A stretch of DNA of 35,297 nt from Planctomycetota bacterium. GTDB taxonomy: Bacteria > Planctomycetota > MHYJ01 > JACPRB01. Location of the stretch: positions 1-35,297 of the forward strand of contig JACPRC010000094.1 of the NCBI GenBank assembly GCA_016190175.1, read 5' to 3'. The translations under genes were made by a program, and so were the position numbers. The notes under the pieces were generated by a model. The model worked only from the letters and a program-made list of their open reading frames with translations, was not told the DNA's origin and ran no database searches. Below are positions 28,801-35,297 of this stretch, in pieces; the first letter of the stretch is position 1; each line of letters begins with the position of its first letter.

Positions 28801-30177
28801 ATGAAGCACGGTCCCTTCGACGTCGTCATCGTCGGCAGCGGTCCCGCGGGATACGTCGCCGCGATCCGCGCGGGCCAGCTCGGCCTCAAGACCGCCATCG
28901 TCGAGAGGGACGGGAAGTACGGCGGCACCTGCCTCTGGCGCGGCTGCATCCCCACGAAGGCGCTCCTCCACGACGCCTACCTCTACGAACAGGTCAAGGA
29001 CGCGAAGCGGTACGGCATCGAGGTCGAGAACGTCCGGCTGAACTGGGACGGCGTCCGCAAGCACAAGGACCTCGTCGTCAGGAAGCTCGGGCTCGGCGTC
29101 GAGGGACTCCTCAAGAAGAACAAGGTGCAGCTCTTCACCGGCACCGGCGTCGTGAAGCGTCCCGGTCTCGTGGGCGTCGGCGCCGACGAGATCGAGGCGA
29201 AGAACATCGTGCTGGCCACGGGCTCGGAGCCGAAGTGGTTCCCGGGGATGGAGCCCGACGGCAAGGGGATCATCACCAGCACGGAGGCGCTCGACCTTGC
29301 CGCCGTGCCGAAGTCGCTCGCCGTGATCGGCGCGGGCGCGGTCGGGATCGAGTTCGCCTCCATCTACCGCAGCTTCGGCGCGGAGGTCTCCGTCATCGAG
29401 ATGATGCCGCAGATCGTGCCGCTCGAGGACGAGGAGGTCGCGAGGGAGGTGGAGAAGGTCCTCGCCAAGCGCGGGATGAAGTTCTACACCGGCGCGAAAG
29501 TCGAAACGATCAAGCCGGGATACGAGATCCTCATCGCGCACGACGGGAAGAGCGAGACGGTCAGGGCGGAAAAGGTCCTCGTCGCCGTCGGCCGCAAGCC
29601 GAACACCGACAAGATCGGGATCGAGAACACGAAGGTGAAGGTCGATCGCGGCTTCGTCAAGGTGAACGGCTTCATGGAGACCGACGAGCCCGGGGTCTAC
29701 GCGATCGGCGACATCGTGCCGACGCCGATGCTTGCCCACGTCGGGAGCGCCGAGGGGATCCTCGCGGTCGAGAAGATGGCGGGGAAGCCCGTCCATCCGA
29801 TCCGCTACGACCGCGTCCCCGCCGTGACCTACTGCGATCCGCAGGTCGCGAGCGTCGGACTCACGGAGAAACAGGCGAGGGCGAAAGGGCACGCGGTGAA
29901 GTGCGGACGCTTCCCGTTCGCGGGGATCGGCAAGGCTTCGATCGAGGGCGAGAACGAGGGCTTCGTCAAGATCGTCGGGGAGACGAAGTACGGCGAGATC
30001 CTGGGCGTGCACATCCTGCACGCGCACGCGGGCGAGATGATCTCCGAGGCGGTCGCGGTCCTCAACGGCGAGCTGACGGCGGAGGACCTGGCGCACGCGA
30101 TCCACCCGCACCCGACGCTCTCGGAGGCGGTCGCGGAGGCGACGCACGCCTTCTTCGGGCAGGCGATCCATATCTGA
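28801..30177 (+). CDS. lpdA: Dihydrolipoamide dehydrogenase (E3)
   Basis: 458 residues, the normal length. The FAD-binding VVIVGSGPAGYVAAIRAGQ leads, followed by the redox-active disulfide GGTCLWRGCIPTKALL (C-x4-C), where Trp-Arg replaces the common Asn-Val. NAD-binding is SLAVIGAGAVGIEFASIY and the second FAD motif VYAIGDIVP. The C-terminal His-Glu pair HPHPTLSEAVAEA at the dimer interface is intact. It reoxidises lipoamide on 2-oxoacid dehydrogenase or glycine cleavage complexes in the cytoplasm. Lipoyl synthase lies 930 bp downstream on the same strand. Confidence 0.96.
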   Translation: MKHGPFDVVIVGSGPAGYVAAIRAGQLGLKTAIVERDGKYGGTCLWRGCIPTKALLHDAYLYEQVKDAKRYGIEVENVRLNWDGVRKHKDLVVRKLGLGVEGLLKKNKVQLFTGTGVVKRPGLVGVGADEIEAKNIVLATGSEPKWFPGMEPDGKGIITSTEALDLAAVPKSLAVIGAGAVGIEFASIYRSFGAEVSVIEMMPQIVPLEDEEVAREVEKVLAKRGMKFYTGAKVETIKPGYEILIAHDGKSETVRAEKVLVAVGRKPNTDKIGIENTKVKVDRGFVKVNGFMETDEPGVYAIGDIVPTPMLAHVGSAEGILAVEKMAGKPVHPIRYDRVPAVTYCDPQVASVGLTEKQARAKGHAVKCGRFPFAGIGKASIEGENEGFVKIVGETKYGEILGVHILHAHAGEMISEAVAVLNGELTAEDLAHAIHPHPTLSEAVAEATHAFFGQAIHI

Positions 30178-30846: not shown

Positions 30847-31113
30847 ATGAAGATCGTGACGGGCCTGGGCTGCCCGGGATGCGGGATGACGCGGTCGGTC
30901 TCGGCCGCCGCGCACGGGCGGATCCTCGAGTCGCTGCGGATGCATGCCCTGGGGCCGGCGATCCTCCTGCTCGTAGTCGCGCTCTGGTTCGCGCTTCTCT
31001 TTGGCGCGAAGGCGCGCATCGATCATCCCTGGACGACGAAGGTCCTCGTCGGTTTCGTCTTCGCGCTCCTGGCCTACTGGATGGTGCGCGTCTTCCTGGG
31101 GGCGGTGCCGTGA
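30847..31113 (+). CDS. DUF2752 membrane protein
   Basis: 88 residues. TGLGCPGCGMTRSVSAAAHG is the DUF2752 signature (CPGCGxTR...HG). It is followed by ILESLRMHALGPAILLLVVA and two transmembrane helices (to VLVGFVFALLAYWMVRVF). The family is membrane-embedded, with the CPGCG motif possibly metal-binding, and has no assigned function. The usual N-terminal helix is encoded by the preceding in-frame ORF. Overlaps lipA as GTGA. Confidence 0.8.
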   Translation: MKIVTGLGCPGCGMTRSVSAAAHGRILESLRMHALGPAILLLVVALWFALLFGAKARIDHPWTTKVLVGFVFALLAYWMVRVFLGAVP

Positions 31114-31997
31114 TCGAGCGCAAGCCCTTCGAGTCGCCCGCCTTCGGCGGACTCCCTCAGCGCAAGCCCCCCTGGCTCAAGGTGCGGCTCCCCTCGGGCG
31201 AGGGCTACGCGGCGACCCTCCGCGTCGCGCGCGGGCGGAAGCTCCACACCGTCTGCGAGGAGGCGCGCTGCCCCAACATCGGCGAGTGCTGGGGCCGCAA
31301 AACCGCGACCTTCATGATCCTCGGCGACGTCTGCACGCGCTCGTGCGGCTTCTGCGCCGTGAAGAGCGGGCGACCCTCGGGGTTGGACCTCGACGAGCCG
31401 CGCCGGACGGCCGAGGCCGTGCGCGATCTCGGCATCCGGCACGCCGTCATCACGAGCGTGAACCGCGACGAGCTGCCCGACGGCGGCGCGGGGATCTTCG
31501 CCGAGACCGTGCGGCGGATCCGCGAGCTCAGTCCCGGCACGCGCGTCGAGATCCTCGTGCCCGACTTCCTGGGGAAGCGCGAGGCGCTCGCGAAGGTGTG
31601 GGGAGCGCGGCCGGACATCTTCGGCCACAACGTCGAGTGCGTGGCGCGCCTCCAGCGCGCGGTGCGGAGCGCCGCGAACTACACGCGCTCCCTCACGGTG
31701 CTCGAGGAAACGAAGAAGGTCGGCGGGATGCTCGTCAAGACGGGCCTCCAGGTCGGCCACGGCGAGGCGTGGGAAGAGATCCTCGCGCTCATGGACGACG
31801 TGGCGCGGATCGGCGTGGACATCTTCACGATCGGGCAGTACCTCCAGCCGACGCGGGAGCACCTGCCCGTGCGCCGCTGGTACACGCCGGAGGAGTTCGC
31901 GGCGCTGCGTCAGGAGGCCCTCAAGCGCGGGATCCCGCACTGCATGTCGGGGGCGCTCGTGCGGAGCTCGTATCGGGCGGAGCAGCCGTTCGAATAG
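31110..31997 (+). CDS. lipA: Lipoyl synthase
   Basis: 295 residues from GTG 31110 (GTGA overlap with the DUF2752 gene). All cluster ligands are present: the auxiliary 4Fe-4S motif C49-x4-C54-x5-C60 (CEEARCPNIGEC), the radical SAM motif C75-x3-C79-x2-C82 (CTRSCGFC), and the C-terminal RSSY serine ligand (VRSSYRAEQ). HAVITSVNRDELPDGGA and the NVECVARLQRAVR segment are typical. It inserts two sulfurs into protein-bound octanoyl groups to make lipoyl cofactor, the substrate chemistry for E3 encoded upstream. lipB is not seen in the window. Confidence 0.97.
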   Translation: MIERKPFESPAFGGLPQRKPPWLKVRLPSGEGYAATLRVARGRKLHTVCEEARCPNIGECWGRKTATFMILGDVCTRSCGFCAVKSGRPSGLDLDEPRRTAEAVRDLGIRHAVITSVNRDELPDGGAGIFAETVRRIRELSPGTRVEILVPDFLGKREALAKVWGARPDIFGHNVECVARLQRAVRSAANYTRSLTVLEETKKVGGMLVKTGLQVGHGEAWEEILALMDDVARIGVDIFTIGQYLQPTREHLPVRRWYTPEEFAALRQEALKRGIPHCMSGALVRSSYRAEQPFE

Positions 31998-32049: not shown

Positions 32050-33051
32050 TCAAGCGCGCTCCCCCGCCGCGCACTCGCTCCCCCAAAACTCCCCGAACAT
32101 GTCCGCGATCCGGATCGCGTGGTCGATCCTCCACAACGAACGGGCTTCCACGTGCGACAGGATCGGCGTGACGAGCAGGCGCTGCTCGCCCACGGGGCGG
32201 CGGGCCTTGAGTTCCGCGAAGATCTTCTCCGAGTGGGAGCATGGAATCGTTCCGTCGTGGAGGTCGTGCACGATCATCACCCGCGACCGGAGCCTCGACA
32301 GCTTCCCGCACGGCGAGAGGGCCCGGAGCGTTTCCGGATCCGGCGCGCGACGAAGCCCCGATCGTATCTCCGGCCTTCGGAGCACTTCCCGATAGAAACC
32401 GCGCTTCGTCTCGACCGCCGGGGCATCGCAATAGCCGAGCAGGATCTCGCCGAGCCGCTCCCGTTCCGACGGGGCCAGCGGCAAGTCGTCCCGCATCCGC
32501 CAGGCCAGCGCCATGCGGATGTAGATGAAATCGTCCCACTCGGCGTCCGTGCGCGGCTCGGATTCCCGATCCGGCCAGGACCGCCACAGATCCTCCAGCG
32601 AGTGGTACGGTCCCATGAGGAGGATCGGGTCCGCCGTTCCGCGCATCGAACCGTCGGCGACCGCGGTGAGGGCGACGCCCGCGCCGAAGCTGAACGCGAC
32701 CACACCGACCGGGCCCCCGCAGGCCGCGCGCAGGGCGGCCACGGCCTCCTGCACGGAGGAGAGGTCGCGCACGTCCTCGCGGCACGACTTGAGACCCGGC
32801 AGCGCGGGAGCGGCGACGGAGAAACCCGCCGCGGCGAAGCTCCGCGCGAGCCGGACCAGCCTCGGATCGCGCTCGCCGGCGAGGCTCATCCCCTGCACGA
32901 CGACCAGGCCCCGGCGGCGCGGCCTCGCCGGCATGTAGAGGTCGAGTCCGCTTCCCGCGGGTCTCGATTCGACGACCCGCGCGGGGTCGCTCCGCGCCGG
33001 CCGGAGAAGGACCGCGGCCGCGCGGAAGCCCCGCTCGATCCGGCGGAACAC
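32050..33051 (-). CDS. Alpha/beta hydrolase (dienelactone hydrolase-like)
   Basis: About 333 residues. The core shows LVVVQGMSLAGERDPR (oxyanion region), nucleophile elbow VVAFSFGAGVALTA (here F-S-F-G), SRVMIVHDLHDGTIP (catalytic-type Asp) and ILSHVEA (catalytic His). The substrate is unknown; esterase or acyl hydrolase activity is the family expectation. The longest frame starts at ATG 33153, but a TTGCCT-17-TAGATT promoter at 33077-33105 lies inside that extension. I therefore take GTG 33051, noting a weak ribosome site and possible non-ATG alternatives nearby. Divergently transcribed from the radical SAM pair, which suggests a functional link. Confidence 0.8.
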   Translation of the reverse strand: MFRRIERGFRAAAVLLRPARSDPARVVESRPAGSGLDLYMPARPRRRGLVVVQGMSLAGERDPRLVRLARSFAAAGFSVAAPALPGLKSCREDVRDLSSVQEAVAALRAACGGPVGVVAFSFGAGVALTAVADGSMRGTADPILLMGPYHSLEDLWRSWPDRESEPRTDAEWDDFIYIRMALAWRMRDDLPLAPSERERLGEILLGYCDAPAVETKRGFYREVLRRPEIRSGLRRAPDPETLRALSPCGKLSRLRSRVMIVHDLHDGTIPCSHSEKIFAELKARRPVGEQRLLVTPILSHVEARSLWRIDHAIRIADMFGEFWGSECAAGERA

Positions 33052-33076
33052 GTCGTCCAGAAATCCCTCCGCGGAG

Positions 33077-33105
33077 AATCTAGCTCCGGAAGCCCGCCGA
33101 GGCAA
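33077..33105 (-). promoter_or_regulatory. Promoter of the alpha/beta hydrolase gene
   Basis: On the minus strand, TTGCCT (33100-33105), a 17-bp spacer and TAGATT (33077-33082). The divergent radical SAM gene has its own TAAGAT box at 33135-33140, 11 bp before its ATG. Confidence 0.55.
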
Positions 33106-33151
33106 TTCCTGTGGAATCGGCTCCGGACCGCCGCTAAGATCGGGCCGCCCC

Positions 33152-34558
33152 ATGCTGCCGACCGCGCCCGCGAAGACCTACTACGAGACCGTTTCGATGT
33201 GCCCCGCGTGCGCCGCGACGGTCCCGGGCCGCGTCGTGGGGCGCCCTGCCGGCGTCTTCGTCGCCCGCGAGTGTCCCGACCACGGACCGTTCGAGGGAAT
33301 CGTCTGCTCCGACGTCGCCTGGTTCGAGGGGCTCGCGCGCTTCGACGTCGAACCCGTGAAGCCCGTGCGCCCGCCGGGCCGGACGGCGCGCGGCTGCCCG
33401 GAGGACTGCGGCCTGTGTCCCGCGCACCGCCAGATCGCCGGGACCGCGGCGATCGAGATCTCCAACCGCTGCAACGCCGACTGCCCCGTCTGCCTCGCGG
33501 ACAACCGGCGGACGTTCGAGCTGAGCCCGGAGCAGGTGCGCTCGATGATCGACGCGTTCCTGCGGACCCAGGAAACCGTGGACGCCGTGGCGGTTTCCGG
33601 GGGCGAGCCGACGATCCACCCGCGGATCTTCGACATCCTGCGCGTCCTCGACCGGCCCGAGATCGGCCGCATTCTCCTCAACAGCAACGGCGTGCGCATC
33701 GCGAACGACGACGGCTTCCTCGACGAGCTCGCGCGTCACCGCAACGTCTACGTGAGCCTCCATTTCGACGGCGCCGGCGCGCGGCGCCTCCGCGGCACGG
33801 GGGCCGAAGTGCAGGAACGCGCTCTGGAGCGCCTGGGGCGGTGGGGCGTGGCCGTCGCGCCGCTCGTCCTGGCGGCGCAGGGCGTCAACGACGGCGACCT
33901 GGGCCGGATCGTGACGTCGCTCCTCGCGCGCTCCTCCGTCCGGTCCGTGGTGCTTTCGATGATGTGCTACGCGGGCGCCAACGGGTCGCGGTTCCCCGGC
34001 GACCCCCTGACGCGGCTCACGATCCCCGCCGCGCTCGACCGGATCGAGGAGGGTTCGGAGCGCCGCCTGCGGAAGCGGGACTTCATCCCTCTGCCGATGC
34101 CGAATCCGATGTGCGCGGCGGTCGGGTACTTCCTCACGGTCGGCGGCGAGATCACGCCGCTCATTCCCATGGCCGACCTCGACGAGGTCGTGCGCTGCCT
34201 GCGGAACGCCAACTTCGCGCGCGTGGACGAGGATATCGAGCGGTTGATCCGCGGCACGATCGACCGCATCTACTCGCGACCCGGGGAGTTCCCGGACGCG
34301 CCGCGGCTCCTGGCGAAGTTCCGCGACCTCCTCTCCGCGCTGTTCCCCGAGGGGCGTCCGCTCGACGCGGGCCGGCAGCGCGCCGTCGTCGAGGAACGGG
34401 TGAAGACGGTCTATCTCATGCAGTTCATGGATCCGTGGACGTTCGACTCGAAGCGCCTCTGCAAATGCAGTTGCCAGCACCTGCTTCCCGACGGGCGGAT
34501 CGTTCCGAGTTGCGGATACTACGCCTATCACCGGCGGTTCGACGCGAGGTTCCGATGA
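33152..34558 (+). CDS. Radical SAM enzyme of the MJ0619/tetraether synthase (Tes)-like architecture
   Basis: 468 residues. An N-terminal Cys-rich module has C17xxC20 and C41-P-D-H44 (the CPxC...ECPDHG pattern), followed by GC82PEDC86GLC89PAH. The radical SAM motif is C107-N-A-D-C111-P-V-C114, and the SAM-binding GGE motif is AVSGGEPTIHP. The end, MDPWTFDSKRL-CKCSCQHLLPDGRIVPSCGYY, matches the (F)MDP.(N/T)FD..R...C..H...PDGRI(I/V)P.C.Y tail of this family, whose archaeal member joins lipid tails into tetraethers. Bacterial relatives have been linked to membrane-spanning lipids, while many remain uncharacterised. A TAAGAT box 11 bp before the ATG suggests a very short leader. Coupled to the paralogue downstream by ATGA. 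Confidence 0.8.
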   Translation: MLPTAPAKTYYETVSMCPACAATVPGRVVGRPAGVFVARECPDHGPFEGIVCSDVAWFEGLARFDVEPVKPVRPPGRTARGCPEDCGLCPAHRQIAGTAAIEISNRCNADCPVCLADNRRTFELSPEQVRSMIDAFLRTQETVDAVAVSGGEPTIHPRIFDILRVLDRPEIGRILLNSNGVRIANDDGFLDELARHRNVYVSLHFDGAGARRLRGTGAEVQERALERLGRWGVAVAPLVLAAQGVNDGDLGRIVTSLLARSSVRSVVLSMMCYAGANGSRFPGDPLTRLTIPAALDRIEEGSERRLRKRDFIPLPMPNPMCAAVGYFLTVGGEITPLIPMADLDEVVRCLRNANFARVDEDIERLIRGTIDRIYSRPGEFPDAPRLLAKFRDLLSALFPEGRPLDAGRQRAVVEERVKTVYLMQFMDPWTFDSKRLCKCSCQHLLPDGRIVPSCGYYAYHRRFDARFR

Positions 34559-35297
34559 CCGTCGCGACTCGCGGCGTCCGGTCGCACGTGTACTACGGGA
34601 TGACCCGGAGTCTGTGCCGCACGTGCCGGCAGGTCGTCGACGCGAGAATCCTCTTCGAGGACGGTCGTGCGTGGCTCGACAAGTTCTGTCTCGACCACGG
34701 GGCGCAGCGCGCCCTCGCCGGCTCCTCCGCCGAATGGTACGCGGATGCGCTGAAGTTCGCGGCCCCCGTCGTCCCGCCGTCCCGCCCTGCGACCCGGGTC
34801 CGACGCGGCTGCCCGCTCGATTGCGGCCCCTGCCCGTCGCACGCCGCCGCCTTCGAGATATGCGTCCTTCCCGCCCTTCGCGGCGGGCGGGCGGAGATCC
34901 CCGCCGCCGCGGACGGCGCCGTCGTACGCCTGGCCGCCGACGACGTCCTGCGCCGGCCCGAACTGCCGGAGACCTGCCGCAAGGCCGGCTTCCGGCGCGC
35001 GGTCGCCTGCGCCGGATCGCTCGACGACGCGCGGGCGCTTGCGGGAGCGGGGATCGACATGGTCCTTTCCGTCGAGGATGCGGCGCCGGACCTCCTCGAG
35101 GTCGTGGGCCTCCTTCAGGAGGGCGGCGCGATCGTGACGGTGCGGGCCAAGGTCCCGCCGCGGCCGGAGATCCTCCGCCGGCTCCTCGACGCCGTCCTTT
35201 CCGGGCCGCGCGCGTTTTCCCTCGAGCTCCAGGTTGCGCCGCCGACGACCATCCCGGACGTGCACGAGGAGATCCGGAGTGTGACGGAGGGACGCAT
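34555..35297 (+). CDS. Cluster-less radical SAM paralogue (cut by the window end)
   Basis: 247 residues visible, continuing beyond the window. It repeats the layout of its upstream neighbour: SLCRTCRQVVDARI and FCLDHG match the first Cys/His module, and RGCPLDCGPCPSHAAAFEI matches RGCPEDCGLCPAHRQIAGT. Where the partner has the C-x3-C-x2-C radical SAM motif, this protein reads CVLPALRGGRAEIP, with no cysteine triad. The GGE motif is also replaced (RAVACAGSLDDA). The TIM-barrel-like continuation (AGIDMVLSVEDAAPDLLEVV) is retained. It may be an inactive structural or substrate-binding partner. The ATG overlaps the preceding stop (ATGA), so roughly matched expression is expected. Confidence 0.7.
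   Translation, partial: MTVATRGVRSHVYYGMTRSLCRTCRQVVDARILFEDGRAWLDKFCLDHGAQRALAGSSAEWYADALKFAAPVVPPSRPATRVRRGCPLDCGPCPSHAAAFEICVLPALRGGRAEIPAAADGAVVRLAADDVLRRPELPETCRKAGFRRAVACAGSLDDARALAGAGIDMVLSVEDAAPDLLEVVGLLQEGGAIVTVRAKVPPRPEILRRLLDAVLSGPRAFSLELQVAPPTTIPDVHEEIRSVTEGR

Follow-up and report, generated by a model that had tools for sequence, protein, structure and literature searches.

We have found in a planctomycete genome a Tes-like radical SAM protein (rSAM-B, hereafter B) that has lost both the radical SAM cluster motif and the SAM-binding motif but keeps all the ligands of its three other metal sites. It is encoded between two intact paralogues (rSAM-A and rSAM-C, hereafter A and C), and a set of genes of the fatty-acid-synthase type follows. 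Our reading, plausible but tentative, is that this is a cassette for cross-linking or cyclising acyl chains with its own dedicated fatty-acid synthase, in which B now serves as a non-radical metalloprotein partner of C. The stretch of DNA analysed (the window, 35,297 nucleotides) comprises contig C62 in full, one of the 231 contigs of a 3.7-Mb metagenome bin that is 64% complete, and would represent the 5' part of the cassette.

The first of the three proteins has the complete equipment of the family. Its features in the window are the following:

33152..34558, + strand: rSAM-A (P0001), intact Tes-like radical SAM protein of 468 aa (Pfam, 7TOL match, AlphaFold/Foldseek)
33200..33283, + strand: rubredoxin-like site of A, C17xxC20...C41xxH44 (aligned to MJ0619 C9xxC12, C33xxH36)
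33395..33427, + strand: N-terminal auxiliary [4Fe-4S] ligands of A, C82, C86, C89 and H92, GCPEDCGLCPAH (MJ0619 alignment)
33470..33493, + strand: radical SAM cluster motif of A, CNADCPVC (sequence, alignment)
33599..33610, + strand: SAM-binding GGEP of A (sequence, alignment)
34112..34513, + strand: C-terminal auxiliary [4Fe-4S] ligands of A, C321, C439 and C454 (MJ0619 alignment)

Against Pfam, A scored 59 bits with Radical_SAM and 46 bits with Zn_ribbon_HMPTM, both above the cut-off. The nearest solved structure was 7TOL, the GDGT-MAS of M. jannaschii (sequence E=4.6e-45; profile E=8e-93), and the same structure was the top Foldseek match of the AlphaFold model (pLDDT 81; E=1e-31, TM 0.74). 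All the metal ligands of MJ0619/GDGT-MAS, with the positions taken as in PMC9433317, were found in the alignments of both A and C. Besides, A carries the C-terminal PDGRIVPSC, and the CX3CX2C, GGE and partial TIM barrel of a radical SAM enzyme are all present. The full Tes-like cysteine architecture, which a preliminary description of this DNA had ascribed to A, is confirmed by sequence, ligands and predicted fold.

Upstream of A lies a divergent gene:

32050..33153, - strand: alpha/beta-hydrolase-like ORF, divergent from A (Abhydrolase_6, E=3.7e-5, just under the Pfam cut-off)

The hydrolase mentioned in the preliminary description is hence present as an ORF, the family call being weakly backed by Pfam. 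The start codons of the hydrolase and of A overlap (CATG, window 33151-33154), so that no room for a promoter is left between them; the hydrolase start may have been called too far upstream, since the match to the homologue in G544 begins at residue 44. This homologue (L147:9147-10139) also flanks B and C in that genome, and just past them (L147:9147-12880) it is accompanied by genes for a membrane protein and for ABC transporters, the latter LolD/LolE-like by eye; the product may be exported to the envelope. Just upstream in our window there are a lipoyl-synthase-like (LipA) radical SAM gene (31110-31997) and a dihydrolipoamide dehydrogenase-like gene (28801-30177), probably unrelated housekeeping genes.

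The second radical SAM gene starts within the stop of the first and runs off the contig:

34555..34558, + strand: ATGA overlap of A stop and B start (sequence)
34555..35297, + strand: part of rSAM-B in the window, the first 247 of 369 aa, cut by the contig end (Zn_ribbon_HMPTM 51 bits; clade B in the tree)
34615..34698, + strand: rubredoxin-like site of B, CRTC...CLDH, kept (MJ0619 alignment)
34810..34842, + strand: N-terminal auxiliary cluster of B, GCPLDCGPCPSH, kept (MJ0619 alignment)
34843..34959, + strand: region of B deleted and replaced, where 27/27 other B proteins have CX3CX2C and GGEP (alignment)
35268..35297, + strand: contig-end overlap to C220, 29/30 bases identical, one mismatch

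By searching the same genome we spotted a paralogue near the end of another contig, C220. This end (locus L014, minus strand) extends B in the same frame past the end of the window, the join being based on the 30-base overlap with its single mismatch, and adds the rest of B, then C and then the fatty-acid-synthase-type genes. The joined B has 369 aa with the C-terminal end ...MRCPVAVLGPDGAAIPACSWGVLHREAGR, and a GTGA overlap connects its end to the start of C. As the preliminary description had stated, A and B overlap by four bases and are translationally coupled, and B keeps both N-terminal cysteine modules and is devoid of CX3CX2C and GGE. We looked for these two motifs in the window part of B in all three frames and found neither, and completing the gene brought back no cysteine triad: the joined protein of 369 aa has none. 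Actually, 0/7 of the radical SAM residues (CX3CX2C plus GGE/GGEP) are kept in the alignment to MJ0619, leaving B outside the definition of a radical SAM enzyme. The AlphaFold model of the window part (P0002; few sequences, pLDDT 68.6) has a small rubredoxin-like beta domain and five beta-alpha units, with a disordered stretch at the former cluster loop, and its top Foldseek matches are still 7TOM/7TOL.

The motifs are intact in all the other B genes found (27/27, from 21 genomes), hence the loss is specific to this lineage, and the degenerate form is known from one genome. Two further candidates, in L147 and L154, turned out to be misses of the pattern search, both genes being intact. The fragmented state of the metagenome bin and the location of B at a contig end could suggest an assembly or sequencing artefact. 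We regard this as very improbable, as some 340-450 bases separate the degenerate stretch from the contig end, and it looks coding in one frame and hides the motif in no frame.

The pattern of what B has kept is more informative than the loss. The rubredoxin-like site and the N-terminal and C-terminal auxiliary [4Fe-4S] clusters retain 11/11 of their ligands, vs 66/158 (about 42%) of the other positions that are invariant in the 11 nearest B homologues. By region, the retention of invariant positions was 0.75 (N-terminal part), 0.30 (barrel) and 0.45 (C terminus). At the background retention rate of B, the chance of keeping 11/11 ligands is about 1 in 10,000. These numbers bear on the main alternative to a partner role, which is that B is a pseudogene in early decay, devoid of function, between two working enzymes. 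In its favour, all the catalytic residues are gone, the intact relatives are some 130 residues longer, the branch is very long (2.27 vs a median of 0.41), as early decay would also produce, and no other genome found has the degenerate form. Yet the nine deletions that separate B from its nearest relative all preserve the frame, which stays open over 369 codons, the third-position GC is high throughout (GC3 0.87-0.90, overall 0.89; 0.93 in A), start and stop still overlap the neighbouring genes, and the ligands have been spared while the other invariant positions eroded. We consider decay unlikely and a functional B likely; given that B works, a partnership with C is a somewhat favoured role. 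Judging from the ligands conserved in its sequence, B should be able to coordinate one mononuclear iron and two 4Fe-4S clusters, but no SAM at a radical SAM cluster.

Radical SAM relatives that have lost the SAM cluster have a precedent in the pseudo-SAM/SPASM family TIGR04347, named for that loss. B resembles them in this respect; in contrast, they belong to a SPASM family that is not Tes-like, whereas B keeps three auxiliary metal sites and is the inactive member between two intact paralogues. An open-text search of the literature on pseudo-radical-SAM proteins returned nothing relevant.

The distribution of the family in other genomes indicates which of the associations is old. The scan of species genomes gave three relatives of A, in metagenome-assembled genomes of Acidobacteria (70% identity), Deltaproteobacteria (L028, 58%) and Planctomycetota (55%). 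The last is identical with G143, contigs and positions being in agreement, and G143 is classed in the phylum of the source genome, which makes the window planctomycetal. The deltaproteobacterial locus has the order A-B-C, SDR, SDR, membrane protein, FabZ, KS, KS, nitroreductase, ACP, with the radical SAM motifs intact in A, B and C. Many more B and C genes came from the search of 392 genomes of the phylum of the window and 331 of that of L028. Not counting the source genome, there are 12 in which B immediately precedes C in the same orientation, the neighbours usually being SDRs, FabZ, KSbeta, KSalpha, nitroreductase and ACP. A, for its part, was found in just 5 of the genomes that we examined, and the Acidobacteria one has it with neither B nor C. 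The recurrent tandem is therefore B-C, and not the A-B pair proposed in the preliminary description.

In the maximum-likelihood tree, midpoint-rooted and read here for its clades and not for deep branching order, clade A had a support of 100/100 and clade B of 100/99, and the C proteins split into two 100/100 groups. The joined B falls inside a 100/100 group with the B proteins of L028, L096, L098 and L099, and its nearest BLAST relatives are also B proteins. These separate and well-supported clades span phyla, indicating that A, B and C are old paralogues. A recent duplication of A giving rise to B is rejected by the tree; the duplication and specialisation into an active/inactive pair that had been suggested is, as a recent event, not supported, the clades being old and the 27 other B genes intact.

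In some cassettes (L056:469-1038, L101:7540-8433, L102:3090-3731) there are also a hexapeptide acyltransferase similar to heptaprenylglyceryl phosphate O-acetyltransferase and two further radical SAM genes (E and F). A single-copy Tes/TrsS-like homologue elsewhere (L007/L035, G009:C293:66279-67604) has one in-frame TGA, perhaps coding for selenocysteine by analogy with TrsS.

C220 also encodes the third paralogue, C, a Tes-like radical SAM protein with its motifs intact (CNLECPIC, GGEP). Downstream of it, assigned with Pfam and NCBIfam, come a membrane protein, two SDRs, a FabA/FabZ-type dehydratase and a ketosynthase fragment without the active Cys, followed by a FabF-type ketosynthase, another SDR and an ACP. 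KS, KR, DH and ACP thus stand together with radical SAM genes, the layout of a FASII/PKSII-type cluster. The short ketosynthase homologue without active Cys beside the FabF-type one (L014:5747-6481, L028:15095-15982) has weak matches to known ketosynthases and looks like a chain-length factor, a second pseudo-enzyme that recurs across cassettes. After the ACP (L014:762-3282) there are polyamine-type genes, namely a pyruvoyl-dependent arginine decarboxylase, a deoxyhypusine-synthase-like and an agmatinase-like gene; an agmatinase-like gene was also found near C in G685 (L149:11127-12236).

Clusters of a similar layout have been described before. The ladderane clusters of anammox bacteria and the FASII clusters of Desulfotalea have ketosynthases without active Cys alongside radical SAM enzymes (Rattray 2009, PMC2649909), as does our cassette. 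However, we looked for A, B and C homologues in 14 genomes that gave hits for hydrazine synthase alpha and found none, the generic core matches being of 83 bits at most. A link to ladderanes was discarded on these grounds: these anammox-type genomes lack any member of the family, so the radical SAM genes of the cassette are not those of the ladderane clusters.

Tes takes a hydrogen from the terminal carbon of a lipid, attaches that carbon for a time to a sulfur of an [Fe4S4] cluster and then couples it to a second chain; during the formation of the C-C bond in MJ0619, it is the C-terminal auxiliary cluster that carries a substrate-carbon-sulfur intermediate (PMC9433317). A resembles Tes/GDGT-MAS (MJ0619, 7TOL/7TOM) in domain order, in the ligands of the four metallocentres and in predicted fold; in contrast, the identity in the structural alignment is about 22%, and A, B and C are tandem paralogues in a FAS-type cluster. 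The Tes-type architecture, with all four metal sites, is complete in A and C, B missing CX3CX2C only. TrsS, a radical SAM (seleno)protein, has N-terminal modules in common with the three proteins, which differ from it in having the C-terminal cluster ligands complete; a literature search on TrsS gave a table entry only. MSS (Mss) has been reported to share the catalytic architecture of Tes and to couple acyl chains (PMC13274423), a likeness to A, B and C at the level of description that does not establish membership.

We compared the proteins with the curated NCBIfam models for Tes (NF045702, cut-off 450 bits) and TrsS (NF045646, cut-off 490 bits), scoring A itself, and B and C through their intact L028 homologues. 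With Tes, A reached 217, L028 B 210 and L028 C 257 bits, all below the cut-off. With TrsS, A had 212 and L028 C 271 bits, the tested A, B and C proteins ranging over 179-271, again all below. The two sets of scores were almost equal. The labile Met439 and Tyr459 are completely conserved in 1000 archaeal Tes homologues (PMC9433317). Their equivalents are Met/His in A, His/Val in B and His/Tyr in C, so no paralogue has both. Because of this split between A and C, the archaeal Tes chemistry is not to be assumed, and together with the scores below both cut-offs it leaves the name of tetraether or MSS synthase not established. Membership of A in Tes or MSS, as anticipated in the preliminary description, is not supported (for Tes, 217/450 bits and no equivalent of Tyr459). 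A is Tes-like by sequence and fold; in the tree MjTes pairs with L057, a protein of G054, and not with A, B or C.

That A is nevertheless a true bacterial tetraether/MSS synthase for membrane-spanning lipids, with B as its ancestral inactive heterodimer partner, is in our opinion improbable. It would agree with the Tes-like architecture and fold and with the bacterial Tes homologues proposed for brGDGTs (PMC8941075, PMC11868695), but not with the low Tes score and the grouping of MjTes with L057. Nor is the inactivity of B ancestral, since 27 other B genes are intact, and A exists without B in G059. A product other than a cross-linked membrane lipid, namely a polyketide or polyene with tailoring (of aryl-polyene or ladderane type) on which the radical SAM proteins would carry out another C-H functionalisation (cyclisation, thiolation or epimerisation, for instance), is somewhat less improbable, although still unlikely. 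The arrangement of KSalpha and Cys-less KSbeta, FabZ, SDR, ACP and nitroreductase would suit it, as would the score with TrsS, as high as that with Tes. Against it, the radical SAM proteins have the full ligand set of an enzyme that couples lipid tails, and the absence of the family from anammox-type genomes leaves the direct ladderane link unsupported. Within the literature library searched, none of the papers brought tetraether, radical SAM and ketosynthase together.

We return to the cross-linking or cyclising cassette as the preferred reading. A dedicated type II FAS (FabF-type plus Cys-less ketosynthase, FabZ-type dehydratase, SDR reductases and ACP) would build an acyl chain, from whose unactivated carbons A and C would abstract hydrogen; the new C-C (or C-S) bond formed in this way would yield a lipid that is cross-linked or cyclised. 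Such joining or cyclisation of the chain by A and C is suggested by their Tes-type equipment and by neighbours that would build such a chain on a dedicated ACP. The FAS-type neighbours support action on an acyl chain, which we take as the probable substrate; the cross-linking or cyclisation through C-C bonds is more uncertain, an open possibility that we propose with caution. Membrane-spanning lipids are a possible product. Elsewhere B would be a third active radical SAM enzyme that works together with C; in the source lineage it has lost its cluster and SAM site but would persist as a metalloprotein subunit holding the rubredoxin-like iron and the two auxiliary [4Fe-4S] clusters. In that state it would most likely bind the substrate or the ACP, and pass electrons to C or stabilise it. 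We infer that B is a partner rather than a decaying gene; given that B is translationally coupled to C and that the B-C tandem is conserved, a role as partner or electron relay is the most economical reading. More speculatively, and with considerable doubt, B could be a subunit of C for both electron relay and substrate holding, in an undescribed ACP-based pathway that would cross-link or cyclise growing acyl chains and would occur in planctomycetes and in at least one lineage of Deltaproteobacteria.

Two questions are touched by these data: what role the auxiliary clusters of Tes have in trans, and which enzymes make the membrane-spanning lipids of bacteria. The degenerate B is a clean natural separation of the auxiliary metal sites from the radical chemistry: having lost the radical SAM cluster and kept the three metal sites, it provides a natural test of what the extra sites are for. 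The cassette recurs in planctomycetes and in the phylum of the deltaproteobacterial genome, and the location of Tes-like enzymes beside a dedicated fatty-acid synthase makes their candidate substrates predictable and testable.
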